Shown: positions 1 through 26,169 of the stretch, piece by piece
Position numbering within the stretch: position 1 is the first letter of the stretch
How the letters are laid out: the number at the start of each line of letters is the position of its first letter
Assembly (NCBI GenBank): GCA_006384855.1
Contig: VCJN01003061.1
Span: 95,594-159,593 of the forward strand
Reading direction: 5' to 3'
Source: Tetraselmis striata
Lineage: Eukaryota > Chlorophyta > Chlorodendrophyceae > Chlorodendrales > Chlorodendraceae
DNA: 64,000 nucleotides
The notes under the pieces: generated by a model
The model's input: the letters and a program-made list of their open reading frames with translations, nothing else
Databases searched by the model: none
What the model was told of the DNA's origin: nothing
Program-made: the position numbers and the translations under genes

Positions 1-67
1 CGGGCTGCGACCGGACCCGGCGACCAGAATCTGCACTTTCCGCGCACCCAACCGACCGGCCGGCAGA

Positions 68-3000
68 GTGCCACTGCTCAGTCAAACGGCGTGGGAGCGG
101 CGGGTACGCGAGCACCAACCTGTGGTGCGCGTGGAGAGAGCGAGCTACTGCCATGGGGTGGAGCTCGGCGATGATGAGATGGGGGAGGAGAGTGGGGGGG
201 GCAGTGACGTGTCTCACAGCCACGCCGCCCACGAACCCTCACGGCGTGACGTGCAAGAGTCCAAGACCTGCGAGCCGGCAGACCTACCGCCTTTGCGGGA
301 GGTGCAGAGCCTGCAGCGTCACGGGCTGGCGAGGCTGAGCACCCGCGAAGAGGGCATCAGCCTGTACGAGCCATGTGGCGGAGGCTACGTTGCCGTGTTG
401 AATGCCATGCTGGCCAACGGTCAGAAGGTGGCCAGATACCGGCATTCGGACATCGACCCGGCAGCCCGCAAGGCCGCTGGGCAGCGTGTTCAAGGAGCTC
501 AGTAGGAGATATCCGGATCTACTACCAGCTAGCGCGATCAAGGGGTGGGACTCGTTTCCACAGGACATCACGGCGATCACAACGGAGGACGTGAGGCGCC
601 TGCCATACATAGACATAGTGGGGTGTGGATGGCCTTGCCCAGGCATGAGCAGAGCCAATCGCAACGCGCTGGGATTGCGCGACCGGAGGTCACGTTTGCT
701 CTTTCACGTGGCCGCGTTCATCGAGAAGCTCGAGGAGAAGCAGCCCACCGGCGTGGGATGGCTGCTGGAGAACGTGGATACGAGCGGAGACGAGAGACTG
801 TACATCAAAGAGTCTGAGAAATACATCACGAAGATCATCGGGAGAGCGCTCGTGATTGATGAGGCGGGCTGTGGAGCGAATCATCACCGAGTGCGACGAT
901 TCTGGACGAACATGGGGGACGTGGAGAGACTGAAGTTGGCGTGGGAGAGGCGGGCGGACATGCAGCCACGACTGCTGCGAGAGGTGCTGCCACCGCACCT
1001 ACGGCCGCATGTCAATCTGCCGACGCCACCCAACGGAGTTCGCGTCAACAAACCGGGGCAGCCACGCGCGTTGCCAACGATCTTGGCGCGATCGGACTCA
1101 GATGCCTACTCCGGCGAGGGGGCCGGCATGTTGTTCAACGTCAACACGGGCGAGTGGGAACGGCCCACTGTCCACCTGAAGGAGGAGCTTTTCGGTTACG
1201 AGCCGAACGTAATTCACGGCATATCGCTGCCGGACCATGAGCGCCTCATAGGCAATGCCATGGGTCTGCACAGCGTAGCGTGGATCGTCGGGCACCTCTT
1301 CGTGGAGCAGCAGCGACTGAGGGACTTGGAGGAGCTGGAGCGCGCAGCTCGGGCTGCCCAGGCAGCTCAGCGCGCGGAACGAGAGAGACGAGAGCAACGC
1401 AGGATGCAGAGATCCTGCGGGAGAGCATGGCAGCAGCTGTGTCAACAGGCGCTATGCTGCTGGCTGCTGCTCATTTGGTTGGGCGGCACGTCAATGCACT
1501 TCGGCGAGGCGAGTCGTCTCGGCAACACCACGGTGTTAGCCATGTTCGTGGCAGTGATGGTGCGCGCGAGCGCGCGCTACCGCCGCGAGGTGACGGCGAC
1601 AAGCAGGGCGGGGCGCCGAGCTTTCGGCGCCAACGCCGTGTCGGACGGCGGCGGGACTGCGGAACGGAGTAGCGCTGCTGCGTGGGCCAATCGTGGCTAC
1701 ACGCAGGCAAGTATGAATGATCACGTGGAGGATGTTCGCAGCCTGAAGGATCCTGAGAAACACTGGCGGTGCGGGCGCGAGTGCGAGGCTTCACAGCAAC
1801 AACAGCTAGTGGAGCTCTGCGACAGCTTTTGGGATGACGTGTGGGTGTGGTCCGTCAGCGACCTACCGGCCGTCAACCACTGGGAGTTCAGGATACCGAC
1901 GACCAACACGCAGCCCATCAAGCGACCCAAGTACCGATTGAGCAAGACTGAGTGGGACTTCGTGGACAGCTGGTGCAAGGAGCTGTTGGCAGCTGGGGCG
2001 ATCCGCGAGAGCCAATCTCCCTACAGCATCCCAGTAGTGTGTCCACCGAAGAAGGACGACGACGGCAACTGGACCGGGATCCGGGTGTGTTTGGACGCTC
2101 GCCCGTTGAACAGTGTCACTGAGTCGTGGGCGTATTGTATGCCCAAGACAGACGAGCTACTCAGCAAGGTCGCAGGCGCGCGCATGTACAGCGGGTTTGA
2201 CGCCAAGTCGGCGTTTCATCAGCTGCCCATCGCAGAGGAGGACCGACACAAGACTGCCTTTTGGGGCAGCGACCGGCAGTATGAGTGGTGCCGGATGGCG
2301 ATGGGCTTCAAGAACGCCAGCCAAGCATGGCAGCGTGTCATGGATGAGGCCCTTGGCGATCTGCCGTTCGTGGCGGTTTACGCCGATGACATCTGTGTCT
2401 TTTCAGGCGCAGCCGAGATGAGCGACGCTGAGGTGTTTCAGCAGCACCTTCAGCATTTGGAGACGGTGTTTCAGAGGCTCGCAAAGGCGGGCATCAGACT
2501 GGCGCCCGGCAAGGGGCGCATGGCCGTGAGGCAGATTGCTTTCTTGGGCCATTGGGTCGACGGCGAAGGCGTATTCCCGCAGCACTCCAAGGTGGAGGCT
2601 GTGGTGAAGATGCCGCCGCCGACTGACGTTGCGGGGCTTCGGCGCTTCCTCGGCATGGTGGGCTACTACGGTAAGTTCATCGAGCAAGTTGCAGTCAAGC
2701 GCAAGCCGCTGACCAAGCTCACTGGCAAGGTGCCGTGGGAGTGGGGATCGGAGCAGCAACGAGCCTTCGAGCAGCTCAAGGCAGACCTGGTTTCAGCTCC
2801 CGTGCTGAGAAATCCGGATTGGAGCCGCCCTTTCATCCTGCACACCGATTTCAGCGGAGCTGGATTGGGCGCGGTGTTGGCGCAGGAGGACGACGAAGGA
2901 CAGGAGTACGTGGTGGAGTTTGCGAGCCGCACCTGCCAAGGCGCGGAGCCCAACTATGCCAGCTATGAGGGTGAGTGTCTTGCCATGTTGTATGGCATGG

Positions 3001-3569
3001 ACAAGTTCAGATACTATCTGTTTGGCAGGCAGTTTGTGGTGGTGACAGATCATCGGCCTTTGGAATGGCTGATGAACACCGCTCAGCTTCGTGGGAAGTT
3101 GGCGCGGTGGGCGATGAGGCTCAGCGAGTAGGACTTCGTGGTACGCTATCGGAAGGGCGCTCACCACGTCAACGCAGATTGTCTGAGTCGGGGGCCCGTG
3201 GAGGGCGACCCAACGGAGCTGGATGGGCGCGGTGAGTTTTCACCGGAGGGCACCGTGCGACATGCGGCAGCCTTTTGGTGCGCAACGGCTCAGAGCAGCC
3301 GGCAGCCGGAGCTGTCAGCATGGGCGCGACGCCGCGTGCTGGACACCGCCCATGAGGGCACGGCCAACGGCGACTTGGTGGCGATTACCGGCGAGCTGAC
3401 GGCGGGACCGCGGAGAGGCGATCCGTGGATGGACGCGGAGGCGATGGCGGAGCTGCAGGCGGGCAACGTCAACATGCCGCAACCTTATGCCCGCTATACA
3501 TGGAGAAACAACATCTTGTGGTATTTACACAAGGACGGCACGCACCGCGAGGGATGGTGGAGGATGTAG
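68..3569 (+). pseudogene. Retrotransposon pol, first part: DNMT3-like methyltransferase, RT and RNase H
   Basis: The methyltransferase starts in one frame (to 505; motif I-like LYEPCGGG near 361-385) and continues in the frame open from 402. Motif IV is GWPCPGMSRAN (about 625-660), motif VI LLENV (760-775), followed by HHRVRRFW (about 880-905), the order seen in DNMT3-type C5 methyltransferases. A hydrophobic, basic linker (1420-1600) leads to the gypsy RT, with DAKSAFHQLPI (about 2200-2230) and catalytic YADD (2378-2390). RNase H has HTDFSGAGLG (about 2841-2870). A single TAG at 3129-3131 splits RNase H from the typical tether sequence VVRYRKGAHHVNADCLSR, which continues in the same frame to 3569. 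The stop could be a mutation or a readthrough site. The remaining RT residues look intact. Confidence 0.85.
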
Positions 3570-5602
3570 CCCGAGTCAAGAAGGCGTGTCCGGACTGCGA
3601 TCGGCTGCAACATCGACCCGGCGGCACCAGCGGTCGCCCAAAGGCAGCCTCACCGCTGGACATGCAGCCGCTGCCGCACTTCGGCATGTTCTACCGCTGG
3701 CACTTGGACTTGGCGGGGCCTTTTGAGGCCACCCGCAGTCGCAATGTCTGGGTGTTGGTGATGGTGGAAGCGGCGAGCAAGTGGGTGGAGTTGGTGCCGC
3801 TGCGCACCAAGGAGGCAGCCAACGTACGACAAGCCTTTCAAGAGAGAGTGCTGGCGCGTTTCGCGGCGCCAGGCGAGGTGTGTACCGACGGCGGTACCGA
3901 GTTCAGCGGCGAGTTCCACGAGCTTCTCGTGGAGCATGACATCGATCATCCGAAGCCGCTGCCCTATCATCCGCAGCCCAATGGGTTGGCGGAAGGAATG
4001 GTGAAAACAGTCAAGGAGGCACTGATGCGCTATGTGGTTCAGCCCGGCAAGCGCGTCGTGTGGGACACTTTTCTGCCTTCCATCGAGCTGGGCTACCGTT
4101 GCAGCAAGCAAGCCAGCACCAGGTACAGCCCATACGAGTTGGTGTACGGCAGGGCGCCCGTGTTTCCCGCGCAGGCGAGAGCGCTCTTTGAGGAGAGCGC
4201 CGTGGACTTCAACAGCCCGGAGGGCATGTGGGAGCTGATGACAGTGCGCGCGGAGCGTTTGGCGCTCATGGTGCCGACGGCAATGCACAACGTGGAAGCG
4301 GCGCAGCATCGTGAAGTGATGCGCTATCGCAGAAGGCGCGCGGGGTTGGTGGCGCCCGGAGTGCAGCGCTTCAGCCCCGGCGACTTCGTCTACGTGCAAC
4401 AACGGCAGCAAGACGCGCTCGATCCACGAGTGCGACCGGCTGTTTACAAGGTTTACGAGGTGAACGACAACGGAGTGGTGGTCATCCAAGGAGCTGACGG
4501 CGACACGGCGCGCGTGCGCGTTGAGGAGCTGGCGCGGTGCGCCGTTCCATACGTGGTGTTGCCGGCAGGATTTGAAGACCCAAATATGGCGTGCGAGGAG
4601 TGCGACGGGCGAGTCAGCACCCAGCGCAACCCGATCATCATCTGCGAAGACTGTGAACGAGGCTGGCACAAGTTGTGTCATCAGCCACCTGTGGCACGTG
4701 TGCCGCGGGGGGCATGGCGGTGTGCGGAGTGCAGCGCTGATGACGCAGCGTTGCCGGCACAGTGGACATCGGTGGCTTTAGCCGCCACAACAATCAGTGA
4801 CAACGACGACAGCGACGAGGAGATTCAAGACCCTGCCCCGCCTTTGCAGCCGACAAGAGCGGCAGTGGCAGCAAGACTGAACTGGGGCATGCCTGGCGCC
4901 TGGCACCCAGCAACTGTGACAAGAACGATGAACAACCTTCAAGCAGCCAATGACTATCTACCGGCAATCAGTAACCAAGTGAGCGAGTACGCTGCGCTAG
5001 CCAACGTGATCAGCTGGCGCGGCCGAGTAATCTTTGATCCGTGGGCGGGACATGGCAGCACCGCTGAGGCCTTGCGGCCGTGCGGTGCGACAGTGATCAA
5101 CAACGACTTCAATCCGGTGTACCAAACTGAGATGTGCGAGGACGCGCTGGAATCCTTTGTGTACCAGTGCGCTCGCGATGTAACCGCAACCGTGGCGATG
5201 ACGACGATGATAACAACGACGATGACGACAACGATGATGACAACACAGCCGCGGTTAGAGGCCCCTTTCATAGTGGTGACCTCCCCGTGGTTCCAACTAC
5301 TTGATCTGGCGCTGCCAATCATGGCGTCATGCGCGGACATCCTTTTCGTGCAAGTACCAATCTTCTACATCGCGCAGGGACCTTCCCCGCGCATGCAGTG
5401 GCTACGGCATCTAGGCGACTGTGGGCGGCTCCACATTATTGCCGGCGACATGCAGCGTAACCGCACTACGCGCCGAACCCTGTGGCTCGCGGTCTTCCGC
5501 GACAACGAGCTGCGAGAGCGAGAACTGCGAGCTGAGTGGCGTCACTCCGTGGCGTCAATTCACTTCCACACCGAGGCGTGCGCTGGCGACCAGCATCACT
5601 GA
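3425..5602 (+). CDS. Retrotransposon pol, second part: integrase, PHD finger, second methyltransferase-like domain
   Basis: The authentic reading begins around 3555, where the frame ending at 3569 hands over to this one; the codons before it are probably shadow. A CPDCD pair near 3594 is the remnant of the integrase zinc finger (the His pair is not clear). The DDE core is HLDLAG (about 3700), CTDGGTEF (about 3881) and NGLAEG (about 3980). After a basic tail a C4HC3 PHD finger spans 4589-4735: CEEC, CEDC, WHKLC, CAEC. An acidic linker precedes a Rossmann-type domain with FDPWAGHGS (5032-5058), NNDFNP (about 5100) and TSPWF (about 5280), resembling motifs I, II and IV of amino-methyltransferases. 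A D/N- or T/M-coding triplet repeat (5196-5250) interrupts that domain, and its alternate frame encodes Asp/Asn, so two compensating shifts are possible. Confidence 0.8.
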   Translation: MDGRGGDGGAAGGQRQHAATLCPLYMEKQHLVVFTQGRHAPRGMVEDVARVKKACPDCDRLQHRPGGTSGRPKAASPLDMQPLPHFGMFYRWHLDLAGPFEATRSRNVWVLVMVEAASKWVELVPLRTKEAANVRQAFQERVLARFAAPGEVCTDGGTEFSGEFHELLVEHDIDHPKPLPYHPQPNGLAEGMVKTVKEALMRYVVQPGKRVVWDTFLPSIELGYRCSKQASTRYSPYELVYGRAPVFPAQARALFEESAVDFNSPEGMWELMTVRAERLALMVPTAMHNVEAAQHREVMRYRRRRAGLVAPGVQRFSPGDFVYVQQRQQDALDPRVRPAVYKVYEVNDNGVVVIQGADGDTARVRVEELARCAVPYVVLPAGFEDPNMACEECDGRVSTQRNPIIICEDCERGWHKLCHQPPVARVPRGAWRCAECSADDAALPAQWTSVALAATTISDNDDSDEEIQDPAPPLQPTRAAVAARLNWGMPGAWHPATVTRTMNNLQAANDYLPAISNQVSEYAALANVISWRGRVIFDPWAGHGSTAEALRPCGATVINNDFNPVYQTEMCEDALESFVYQCARDVTATVAMTTMITTTMTTTMMTTQPRLEAPFIVVTSPWFQLLDLALPIMASCADILFVQVPIFYIAQGPSPRMQWLRHLGDCGRLHIIAGDMQRNRTTRRTLWLAVFRDNELRERELRAEWRHSVASIHFHTEACAGDQHH

Positions 5603-5652
5603 GCGTCGATTGGCGCCCAGCGGCCGTTCACCCTTCTGGCGACCAACCGTCT

Positions 5653-5663
5653 GGGGGGGGGGG
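5653..5663 (+). promoter_or_regulatory. Polypurine tract of the gypsy element
   Basis: Eleven consecutive G lie immediately before ATGGGCC, where the probable 3' LTR begins at TG (5665). Position between the last ORF and the LTR is what is expected of the plus-strand primer site; the assignment is positional inference. Confidence 0.55.
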
Positions 5664-5664
5664 A

Positions 5665-6700
5665 TGGGCCGCCCATTGAGCTGGTAACAGCGCCCCACGC
5701 GGGAATGCGAGCATGCGACGGCAGCTGCCGCAGCATCCGTCATATCCGCGTGCGCGTGAAGAACGGGACAGCCAAGCCCTTCCGGGCCGGCTAGGGTTAA
5801 AGCTAGGGTTCCATACCCGGTTGAGACCACAGGCAGGGCACCTGATTGGTTAGGGTTCCATACCCTGGCCATAGCCCTGAGCGAGGCGCAAGGAGACATA
5901 CATACCGGAGATCAGAGACCCGCCCAAGCACACCTAGGCGGGACTTCTTAGGGAACTCAGATAGCACCTCTAATCGGGACCTCTAACAGGGACCCCTAAG
6001 GTGGACTACCTGCAGAAGACGAAGTACTGTACTGCTGCTGGTACAAGGCGCAAGACTCACTGTAGCCGCAGCCGAGTAGTAGTATAGGACTTGATGAGTA
6101 CAATTAGACAAGGGCAGTGCGTAATGCGTCTGGCGCGCGGTGCGCGCACGGCGCGCGTGCTATTAGCACTTAGCGTGACGTGCGGCTGCCTTGCCATGGC
6201 CGCGATCGCGTGCTTATAGAGGGCCTCCGCCTTCTAGCGGTCCCTCTTCCCCCTTGTCTTGCCTGTGTGTGCCTGTGTGTGCCTGTGTTTGCCTATGACA
6301 GGCATAGGCAAGAGCCTGTGTACGGGACGGAGACGGTGTAAGAGACGGAGATCGGCTTGAGGAACGAGGGCCAAAGGTAATCACGGTAGCCTGCGTGCTT
6401 GTCGTACGGTCGCACGCGTGCTGCCCGCTGCATCGTGCGCGCGCGCTGCTGGTGGTGCTGGGTTGTCACCATTCGACCCGGTACCGACGTAAAGTACTGT
6501 AGGAACGGTTGATAGCCGCGACCAGCACTGCATAAAGTACTGCACGGCGTGGCAGTGACCTGTGGTGAGAGGCTTCATTGCCACTGGCATTCACCCCCCT
6601 GAGTACGGGCAAGACCAGCAACGCTGGTCTGAACTAAAGCCCTATAGGCGTCTGAGAGGTGCCTGTAGTGACTTAGGTTCGCGTTCTGGTGATCCTACCA
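5665..6700 (+). repeat. Probable 3' LTR of the gypsy element
   Basis: The segment starts TGGGCC and ends CTACCA, so it has TG...CA ends with a 3-bp terminal inversion (TGG/CCA). It follows the polypurine tract directly and its start recurs exactly at 6701. It has no coding potential and contains short CTGTGTGTGC-type repeats at 6265-6300. The left LTR lies outside the window, so the boundaries rest on end structure and the recurrence only. Confidence 0.55.
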
Positions 6701-6761
6701 TGGGCCGCCCATTGAGCTGGTAACAGCGCCCCACGCGGGAATGCGAGCATGCGACGGCAGC
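6701..6761 (+). repeat. Second copy of the LTR start (about 61 bp)
   Basis: Bases 6700-6761 repeat 5664-5724 without visible difference, then diverge. This places a truncated second LTR start directly behind the first LTR, as expected of a tandem LTR, a two-LTR circle insertion, or an unequal exchange. Confidence 0.8.
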
Positions 6762-8049
6762 AAGGCAAAAGCCAAGACCTCGACGACCGACAAGGCCGAA
6801 TGATGGGGTGCTCCGCCGTGCCGCCCCCATTCATCAACGTTTCGAGGACACGCCACCGGGCGTGCCTTTGAAGCGACGCTGCACTACTGGAGTCGTCGGC
6901 ATGAGCGGGAGTCCCTCACTACGAACCCGCCTATCCAGGTCGTCGTCCTTTCCCTACCCTTGCATGTGTCAACATCTCCGGCTTTTAAAAGTCTTTTCAC
7001 ATCCCGAGTCTACACCGACCCCCCTTCCTGGCGCGCACATCCAGATATGCCGCGCTAACACTCTTTGCCCGCCGCTCGCAGAATGCCCTCTCGTGCGCGG
7101 CCCGCCCAATGGTGCTCGCGCGACGCCCGCTACGAGATCAGCAGCTACATCAGTTTGCCTTCTTGGCATCATATTCGTGTTACACCTGGCCATGTCGTCA
7201 CCACCCGGCCGGCGCCACCAGCGAACCCCGCGGCGGCGTACGGCGCGTTTCGGCGCCTCCATCGGTCCACGAAGCCGCGCGCCTACATACGACTTCATCG
7301 CATACGCCGAGGGGAAGGCCCCCTGGAGCGAGCTCATGCCAGACAGCATCGAAGCCATGTACCGCACTGGCGTCTGGGGTGCGCCTAGTGCTCAATCTAT
7401 TGACGACATCGCTCACGGCCATCACCTACTCCAAGTACGAGGGCAAGATTCGCTCATTTGCCTCTTCGCCGAGTTCTTCATCGACGAGGAAGGCATATCC
7501 CCTATTGTTTATTTGACCCGGGTAGAGGTCACATGTGACCCGTACCGTACCAAATTCCCACGGCACATCACGACATGCCAACCAGCTCAAAATCAATGGT
7601 GCTTATAATATGTTTAGGTTTTAGGGTAGTTCTGACTATGGTAGGAGGTTGAACATAATTGGGACAGTTTTTGTGGTGTTGCGCACCTTGGTTACCCGGG
7701 GGGGGGGGGGGGTAACAAGGCGCCGGGGCCCACCAACGCGGGTGTCACACCCCATTCCGCCCCATACCCCATATTCACCTTGCTTTTGTGTCTCCGGTAC
7801 ACCACACGGGTTTGCAATGGAGTAAACCCTTTGTCATACAACATAAATCAGCACGGAGCAAAAATAGCTTAGTCTAGTGGTAGTAATGCAAGGCATTGGT
7901 AGAGGTCACGTGTGACATGTATCTACAACTTCAACGGCTATGTGCCACCACACCATATGCCGGAAGAATACCAACACTGGTTGTGACACATTTGCAATGA
8001 CCCAAATGATACTGGAAAATGCGTTGCTACATTTGATGCATGCAAATGT
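6762..8049. other. Gene-poor spacer with weak ORF and 14-base G tract
   Basis: An ORF on the plus strand (6808-7608, 266 codons) has no domain I recognise; its composition is Arg/Pro/Ser rich and it may be chance. A G run sits at about 7699-7713. Nothing else was identified. Confidence 0.3.
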
Positions 8050-20111: not shown

Positions 20112-20472
20112 TGTTAGGGTTACCACCATAACCCTACCTGCATACCTATATCCGCACACCTATACAATCATTCTCGTACCACTCACTTCCTTATACTAAC
20201 GCAACTACTACATGCAACTAAGCTGCTGATCCGCCCACACACATATGCCGCGTGCTTGCCACACGTCATGCCCTCGTCAGCCATTACGCCCCGATGACTC
20301 CCTGATGACTCCAAGCCTAGATTGCATATCCAAGCCTAAGTAATGCCTGCATGCGAACGGCTGTCAAGCCGATAGTTGTATAAAGCCGTGTACACCTCGG
20401 TACACTGTAACAAGATCCTTTGCTGCAAACCTTTTCCTTGTCTATGCTAAAGTCTCTCACCTAAAGCTTACA
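20112..20472 (+). repeat. Left LTR (361 bp)
   Basis: Begins TGTTAGGGTTACC and ends AAAGCTTACA. It differs from the right LTR mainly by lacking CTAG near its start. A TATA-like GTATAAAGCC lies near 20375, which could be the element's promoter. Confidence 0.92.
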
Positions 20473-25804: not shown

Positions 25805-26169
25805 TGTTAGCTAGGGTTACCACCATAACCCTACCTGCATACCTATATCCGCACACCTATACAATCATTCTCGTACCACTCACTTCCTTATACTAACGCA
25901 ACTACTACATGCAACTAAGCTGCTGATCCGCCCACACACATATGCCGCGTGCTTGCCACACGTCATGCCCTCGTCAGCCATTACGCCCCGATGACTCCCT
26001 GATGACTCCAAGCCTAGATTGCATATCCAAGCCTAAGTAATGCCTGCATGCGAACGGCTGTCAAGCCGATAGTTGTATAAAGCCGTGTACACCTCGGTAC
26101 ACTGTAACAAGATCCTTTGCTGCAAACCTTTTCCTTGTCTATGCTAAAGTCTCTCACCTAAAGCTTACA
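25805..26169 (+). repeat. Right LTR (365 bp)
   Basis: Same sequence as 20112-20472 apart from a 4-base CTAG near the start (25811-25814). Followed by ATCGG. Few differences between the LTRs contrast with the decayed interior. Confidence 0.92.

Follow-up and report, generated by a model that had tools for sequence, protein, structure and literature searches.

In this study, we examined a Ty3/Gypsy-type element of the green alga Tetraselmis striata whose 3' part fills positions 1-6759 of the window, that is, of the whole 64,000-nucleotide stretch analysed (C2467:95594-159593), and we searched 224 Mb of genome for its copies. Our findings point, with fair probability for the explanation as a whole, to a recently active family whose polyprotein gained a DNMT3-like DNA methyltransferase (DNMT) between a protease-like region and the reverse transcriptase (RT), as well as a PHD finger and a phage-type amino-methyltransferase-like domain behind the integrase, and for which we infer the mechanism outlined below. 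The whole element, ~11.5 kb long, spans C2467:90878-102352, with its first ~4.7 kb to the left of the window and its 3' end at window position 6759, and reads gag, protease-like region, DNMT3-like C5 methyltransferase, RT, RNase H, DDE integrase, PHD finger and Rossmann methyltransferase-like domain. An earlier note on this DNA, made from its letters alone, had placed the methyltransferase motifs PC, ENV and RRFW in one frame with a gypsy RT bearing YADD, and a PHD finger and a DPWAGHGS/TSPWF domain behind the integrase; both observations hold, the first in a 909-codon open frame (402-3128), the second, integrase core included, in a single frame of 748 codons (3356-5599), on the forward strand like the other parts of the element in the window. 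The profile search that the note proposed gave Pfam matches above the curated cut-offs for DNA_methylase (23.1 bits, cut-off 22), RVT_1 (84.6; 2046-2555, with YADD), RT_RNaseH (116.7; 2742-3128), rve (38.0; 3692-3949) and PHD (28.5, cut-off 24; a C4HC3 finger at 4592-4732), whereas the C-terminal domain of the window copy (4901-5570) matched no model in Pfam, NCBIfam or PHROGs. The Gypsy-type RT and RNase H, which precede the DDE integrase, place the element in Ty3/Gypsy by Pfam, and the best PDB match of a relative, P0021, is the Ty3 Gag-Pol (E 8e-75). The layout is not that of two plain flanking long terminal repeats (LTRs); it runs A-coding-B-A-filler-B instead, and a PHD finger, not the chromodomain of chromoviruses, stands behind the integrase.

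The note had held this four-part combination to be its best candidate for a new system. The combination is real: it recurs in copies, bears signs of purifying selection and stands in the same order in P0021, whose single 1732-residue frame is ~75% identical over three aligned pieces. Genome-search counts being lower bounds, a 675-residue query running from the integrase to the end found at least 74 matches, at least 32 of which reach 95% identity or more over 664 or more residues, each of these taking in both PHD finger and C-terminal domain; at least 15 of these 32 have an open frame of 1753-1799 codons with no internal stops. The DNMT query (282 residues) gave at least 143 matches, at least 43 of them covering at least 254 residues at 95% or more. 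Among the matches listed, 29 of the 32 integrase-to-end contigs are also among the 43 DNMT contigs, counting C2415, in which the two parts lie on opposite strands; the remaining three (C539, C2014 and C2605) hold the DNMT in pieces or partially. Ten copies, chosen partly for long frames, were read in detail. The second open reading frame (ORF2) is open in nine (1753-1771 codons), and all nine carry PC, ENV, RRFW, GNA, YADD, the zinc motif, PHD, DPWAG and TSPWF; the tenth, the window copy, is short of the zinc motif only. Thus the nine other copies read retain methyltransferase and PHD finger, whose absence there the note had named as grounds for giving up its reading. One gene model, P0006, matches the element at 100% over the covered 86% of the DNMT query. 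Identity to P0021 is 90% in RT, 93% in RNase H, 87% in the integrase core, 70% in the DNMT, 71% in the PHD finger and 65% and 74% in the two halves of the C-terminal domain, with 64% in a hydrophobic linker and 52% in the linker from PHD to C-terminal domain. By tblastn, no relatives were found in viral and GTDB contigs, and phage matches were weak.

Ratios of nonsynonymous to synonymous change (Ka/Ks) were taken against diverged genome copies, which are mostly dead, so that the values are inflated. They came to 0.14-0.27 for the PHD finger (four copies), 0.14-0.57 for the two halves of the C-terminal domain (six tests), 0.05-0.31 for the integrase core (four copies) and 0.20-0.61 for DNMT motifs IV-VIII (six copies). 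PHD finger and C-terminal domain therefore look like kept protein sequence, and the DNMT looks less strictly kept than these two. Given recurrence across copies together with such signs of purifying selection, the combination is no chance neighbourhood: that host methyltransferase pseudogenes merely adjoin the element, the objection foreseen by the note, is refuted by the frame and order that many copies and P0021 have in common, and we give it next to no probability. The window copy is broken but recent, its two A repeats being identical over 961 bp. A nonsense codon (TAG, 3129-3131), unique in the genome as an exact 27-nt pattern, ends the frame after RNase H; the RNase H tail and connection follow by alignment at 3132-3566, up to a deletion with frame change (junction near 3560) by which the zinc-binding segment of the integrase, retained in P0007 and P0021, was lost. 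The same deletion junction is found at four genome places with different target duplications (GCAA in the window, GTAT in C539, GATC in C1398 and GCAG in C2531), so the deleted sub-lineage was probably mobilised by intact copies.

The kinship with DNMT3 claimed by the note is tentative: the nearest solved structure to the DNMT part is DNMT3A, with DNMT3A/B/C chains at E 7e-4 to 0.02, all weak matches, followed by HhaI at 0.19. C5 methyltransferase motifs I, IV, VI, VIII and X are all present; no ADD or PWWP domain was matched by Pfam next to the catalytic domain, the PHD finger sitting behind the integrase. The single frame that the note gave the enzyme applies from motif IV onward, but motifs I (EPCGGG, 368-385) and II (HSDID, 443-457), by frame reading, belong to a first open reading frame (ORF1) that ends with TAG at 503-505. 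ORF1 has 1129 codons in total, starting outside the window at C2467:92709; its 3' end (2-505) comprises the end of the protease-like region, a linker and the N-terminal part of the DNMT, and aligns to P0018 (E 7e-11), a protein from an ENA contig. The ORF2 part of the DNMT (495-1311, from Pfam and alignment) carries PC (633-638), ENV (768-776), RRFW (894-905) and a GNAMG-type motif X. The enzyme is thus cut in two by a conserved +1 overlap (402-505), a candidate programmed frameshift, where ORF1 ends after motif II and ORF2 opens one base on, with motif IV onward; it is here, too, that the frame of P0021 starts. Allowing up to three mismatches, a 27-nt core of this overlap is present at 64 genome places, 44 of them exact, and the ORF1 stop codon is altered in C1448 and C2384. 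The stretch 402-505 is gap-free in eight of ten diverged copies, the other two having 2 and 8 gap positions. Among the ten copies read, ORF2 starts at the same place in all, ORF1 reaches that start in nine, motif I is in an open frame in nine, and ORF1 has 1129 codons in four, the window copy included, and 1118 in a fifth. This recurrence rules out an error of the window copy alone. Hyper-conservation of the overlap nucleotides was also considered, and at 95%, versus 86-93% nearby, is only modest. As P0018 has the same DNMT residues in one frame, the split is probably derived, and programmed +1 frameshifting is its simplest reading from the sequence. The products of the two frames might instead be halves that reassemble with no frameshift, a reading that the ATG at 402, the first codon of ORF2, and the existence of two-subunit C5 enzymes would suit; yet the first ~27 codons of ORF2 are out of frame with DNMT homology and gag-pol elements usually fuse, and we regard it as improbable. 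Behind the DNMT, a linker (1430-1580) holds, by eye, two hydrophobic stretches resembling membrane helices, also kept in P0021; lying between DNMT and RT, they are perhaps a membrane anchor inside Pol.

Several observations weigh against a working element of this kind. In the protease-like region, the motifs SDGGSS and LLLGG are candidates by eye, and Pfam matched no protease, at E up to 10, in P0012, a protein that covers them. Among 21 proteins compared, the PC motif occurs only in P0021 and in none of the T. striata gene models, which begin downstream of it or lose it by splicing, positions 419-637 being removed in four (P0011, P0012, P0015 and P0017). Of the ten models extending to the C terminus, nine leave out 4652-5094 and the tenth, P0003, a similar span; if real, this omission would take away motif I of the C-terminal domain along with half of the PHD finger. 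Ka/Ks is high in DNMT motifs IX-X (0.33-0.72, six copies) and in the C-terminal part of the integrase (0.19-0.72, four copies), and several Ka/Ks values rest on few changes, with no significance testing. Structure predictions for the C-terminal domain and for the ORF2 part of the DNMT were too poor for use (pLDDT 45.7 and 34.3). Finally, no clear footprint of CpG methylation was seen: the CpG observed-to-expected ratio of the element, 1.00, shows no depletion and compares with 0.96 for the remainder of the window and 0.78-0.90 for four Copia loci, and C-to-T change amounts to 6.0% in CG, 6.8% in CHG and 4.0% in CHH contexts. From the protein-level conservation of both skipped spans in the single P0021 frame, we read 419-637 and 4652-5094 as probably coding; over the latter, a cruder first run gave Ka/Ks of 0.17 in the two most diverged copies, with 0.37 and 0.73 in two closer ones. 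Some of these points, namely the missing PC motif in the gene models compared and the higher Ka/Ks in motifs IX-X, would also suit a relic DNMT, disabled by the +1 break or by a real intron at 419-637, in an element in which only RT, integrase, PHD finger and C-terminal domain work; the identical ORF2 opening in all ten copies, with ORF1 reaching it in nine, counts in the same direction. Such decay is rather unlikely, since PC, ENV, RRFW and GNA are kept in ten of ten copies read and in P0021, the DNMT is closer to P0021 (70%) than are the two linkers (64% and 52%), and Ka/Ks is 0.20-0.28 in four of the six tests of motifs IV-VIII.

Behind the integrase, the PHD finger has as its nearest solved structures the fingers of DPF3 and ATXR5, and so resembles fingers that bind histone H3 tails; by analogy with chromodomains, it may guide integration. 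As the note suggested, the element may read chromatin at integration and methylate DNA. The second, C-terminal domain carries DPWAGHGST (from 5036), NDFNP, EDALE and TSPWF (5279-5293), and D-P, D, DAL and TSPWF are invariant in four aligned sequences. A motif I followed by a motif IV, the signature of a Rossmann fold binding S-adenosylmethionine (SAM), agrees with a phage-type amino-methyltransferase. Beyond the element family, genome matches to the domain stand at 36-43% identity, in frames of ~190-450 codons (among the matches listed). One such frame, L098, matches PHROGs family 799, DNA methyltransferase, at 7.1e-7; another, L097, had no PHROGs match, and neither passed a Pfam cut-off. By hhalign, a profile of the four sequences aligned from motif I to motif IV with a viral NPPF protein at 95.7% probability; as that protein was chosen by its motif-I pattern and has no Pfam match, less weight should be placed on this alignment than the figure suggests. 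Profile matches in PDB were insignificant, the best being 2zie, a putative modification methylase (E 0.06 and 0.13), and the 50 best rows of a fold search mix methyltransferases with aminotransferases, none below E 0.01. The catalytic consensus of amino-methyltransferases is (N/D/S)PP(Y/F/W), from which TSPWF departs in all four aligned sequences, a further point against the assignment. The most probable identity of the domain is that of a SAM-dependent amino-methyltransferase, or of a protein derived from one. It was also seen in families of shorter frames outside the element (L097, L098 and others), and at C2237:9763-30517 six matches, 4.0 kb apart on one strand, form a tandem array.

The ends of the element suggest an unusual route of insertion. 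In the window copy, an 11-nt G-run resembling a polypurine tract (5653-5663) stands immediately 5' of the first copy of repeat B (5664-5723), which ends in CGACGGCA; GC and then the second copy of repeat A follow (5726-6686, 961 bp, identical to the first copy at C2467:90878-91838), making the B/A junction palindromic. A filler (6687-6699) leads to the second copy of B (6700-6759), the 3' end of the element, with the target duplication GCAA at 6760-6763. Repeat A holds a TATA-like TTATAGAG at ~6214 and, 30 nt behind it, CTCTTCCCCCTTGTCT (6244-6259), a candidate self-primer site that is a perfect 16-nt complement of the sequence directly after the first copy of A, so that B-A looks like the real LTR, produced by self-primed reverse transcription. 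Copies mapped at both ends read A (961)-coding-G-run-B (~60)-GC-A-filler-B, the interior of some being known from pattern positions only. The insertions end in TGCCG...CGGCA, and 18 of 19 both-ends-mapped copies have matching 4-bp target duplications, the exception being C238; such duplications also flank C1431 (A-coding-B only) and the 5'-truncated C2631, as well as six of seven short A-filler-B forms, two of which share flanks and count once. The seventh short form, L049 (C1469), has no matching duplication, its left 12-nt flank being that of C981 and its right flank that of C238. The filler lies between the end of A, CGTTC(AG), and the start of B, ATGGGCC, directly behind the G-run, that is, where two ends of complementary DNA (cDNA) would meet, and it differs in all 17 comparable copies of the 19 (C2011 has no A end and C2529 an inverted A piece). 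Judged from these sequences, the insertion ends look like the two halves of the B/A palindrome within the B-A repeat, making the insertions circular permutations of B-A-coding-B-A. Together with the differing fillers, the ends indicate that the integrase seems to use the palindrome inside the repeat, perhaps on circular DNA; the pattern would suit circles as the substrate of the integrase, or linear cDNA on which it acts close to one end, the ends being joined afterwards. Two findings speak against the circular route. Outside the 19, C1944 and C1950 share the filler-free join of C1398, and C1513 and C1213 share one; moreover, the reciprocal layout A-filler-B-A-coding-B, expected of an unbiased circle, appears in none of the 19 copies, only the first B/A site being used, which favours an end-proximal preference. 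Inverted A or B pieces were also seen in C311, C1687, C2529 and C1442, as expected from the joining of several cDNA fragments before insertion.

These shared junctions and the missing reciprocal layout could also reflect hard-wired split repeats of the DIRS kind, in which A1-coding-B1-A2-B2 is copied in each cycle with B1-A2 as splint and no internal integrase site is needed, and the layout is indeed that of the published KnitGypsy-Dnmt3 legend. Yet split direct repeats are where the likeness to DIRS elements ends, this being one of layout only: in place of a tyrosine recombinase acting with no target duplication, the element has 4-bp duplications and a DDE integrase. Furthermore, the A2/B2 junction, with B truncations and G-runs, differs in 17 of 17 comparable copies, so that it is mostly not inherited, and other loci show inverted repeat pieces. 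We therefore consider hard-wired repeats unlikely and return to the use of the palindrome. In the cycle we propose, the RNA would start in A and prime itself, reverse transcription would yield B-A-coding-B-A, the cell would join the cDNA ends with variable filler, and the integrase, held on histone H3 tails by the PHD finger, would cut the palindromic B/A site of the first repeat and join both halves to the target. A +1 frameshift would give some Gag-Pol a whole DNMT, which would methylate the new DNA copy, and the C-terminal domain would modify DNA in a second way. The fuller proposal holds that the DDE integrase uses the internal palindrome CGGCA-GC-TGCCG, not the cDNA ends, and so inserts circular or end-joined cDNA permuted like bacterial transposon circles, with a programmed frameshift restricting the whole DNMT to Gag-Pol, coupled to a PHD reader and a second methyltransferase; we put it at somewhat short of even chances. 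Self-methylation as the biochemical role of the DNMT is offered tentatively, the greater share of likelihood being spread over nuclease protection, anti-silencing and host-directed marks. Such a role has been proposed for retrotransposons with DNMTs; de novo methylation of CG is reported for the SymbioDIRS-Dnmt3 enzymes, and the outcome for that of KnitGypsy is called inconclusive (PMC5890265).

Other DNMT carriers occur in the genome, in which 123 stretches match PF00145 above its cut-off. Six diverged ones (L069, L070, L071, L094, L095 and L096) have, by eye, a Copia-type order, their DNMT lying between gag and protease. RVT_2 was confirmed in the three scanned (L069, L094 and L095), and DNA_methylase passes its cut-off in L094 (45.8 bits) and L095 (36.9) but not in L069 (18.5). 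The DNMT of L094 is nearest to HaeIII and DNMT2 chains. L096 (C428:15200-23700) shows, by eye, an apparent in-frame loss of RT, and its LTR-like repeats are identical over 470 bp. Stand-alone frames of 325 codons, six in number (C1993, C776, C1647, C2337, C355 and C1455), reach 144-151 bits for DNA_methylase and are repeated in the genome. Elsewhere in the window, perfect 358-bp direct repeats (20115-20472 and 25812-26169), 5.3 kb apart with no 200-codon frame between or over them, look like a non-autonomous LTR element.

How, then, does the element compare with known systems? P0018 likewise combines RT, RNase H, a DNMT-like domain, integrase and PHD finger, with 26% DNMT identity and FWTNMGD common to both; it differs in having the DNMT between RNase H and integrase and in one frame, with PEC as motif IV and no Pfam DNA_methylase match at E up to 10, and it ends soon after the PHD finger, with no second methyltransferase-like domain. 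Tf1-type Gypsy elements are self-primed, and our element resembles them in the 16-nt complementarity between the sequence after its 5' repeat and the site 30 nt after the TATA-like box, the other domains being different. A DNMT within a Gypsy-type Pol is already published, so the note's description of an undescribed system does not extend to that part: KnitGypsy-Dnmt3 of the charophyte Klebsormidium nitens likewise has an in-built Dnmt3-type DNMT and repeats of DIRS-like structure (PMC5890265). As far as its description goes, the T. striata element is set apart by a chlorophyte host, the PHD finger, the C-terminal methyltransferase-like domain and a DNMT in two frames, the words PHD and frameshift being absent from the main text on KnitGypsy-Dnmt3 (PMC5890265). 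In the same account, SymbioDIRS-Dnmt3 and SymbioLINE-Dnmt have also captured DNMTs, but are tyrosine recombinase or endonuclease elements (PMC5890265), and methylase-encoding Gypsy and DIRS elements are mentioned in green algae too (PMC6338049). By word search of the open-licence literature, we did not find the PHD finger with a second methyltransferase-like domain in such elements, the frame split of the DNMT, per-copy junctions or Copia elements with a DNMT. Retroviral DDE integrases likewise cleave an internal palindrome of joined ends, in 2-LTR circles, although there the palindrome is formed where LTR meets LTR and linear DNA results from the cut (PMC1180852, PMC1905944), whereas in T. 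striata it lies inside the repeat and would be the site of insertion. Overall, our results widen DNMT capture by retrotransposons to include a core chlorophyte as well as Copia elements, and show a polyprotein in which the DNMT is accompanied by a histone reader and another methyltransferase-like domain. Near-identical copies in an alga and these added domains make self-marking of new insertions testable. The per-copy junctions provide a natural record of an insertion route not predicted by the textbook two-LTR scheme, and may also explain the DIRS-like repeats of Klebsormidium.

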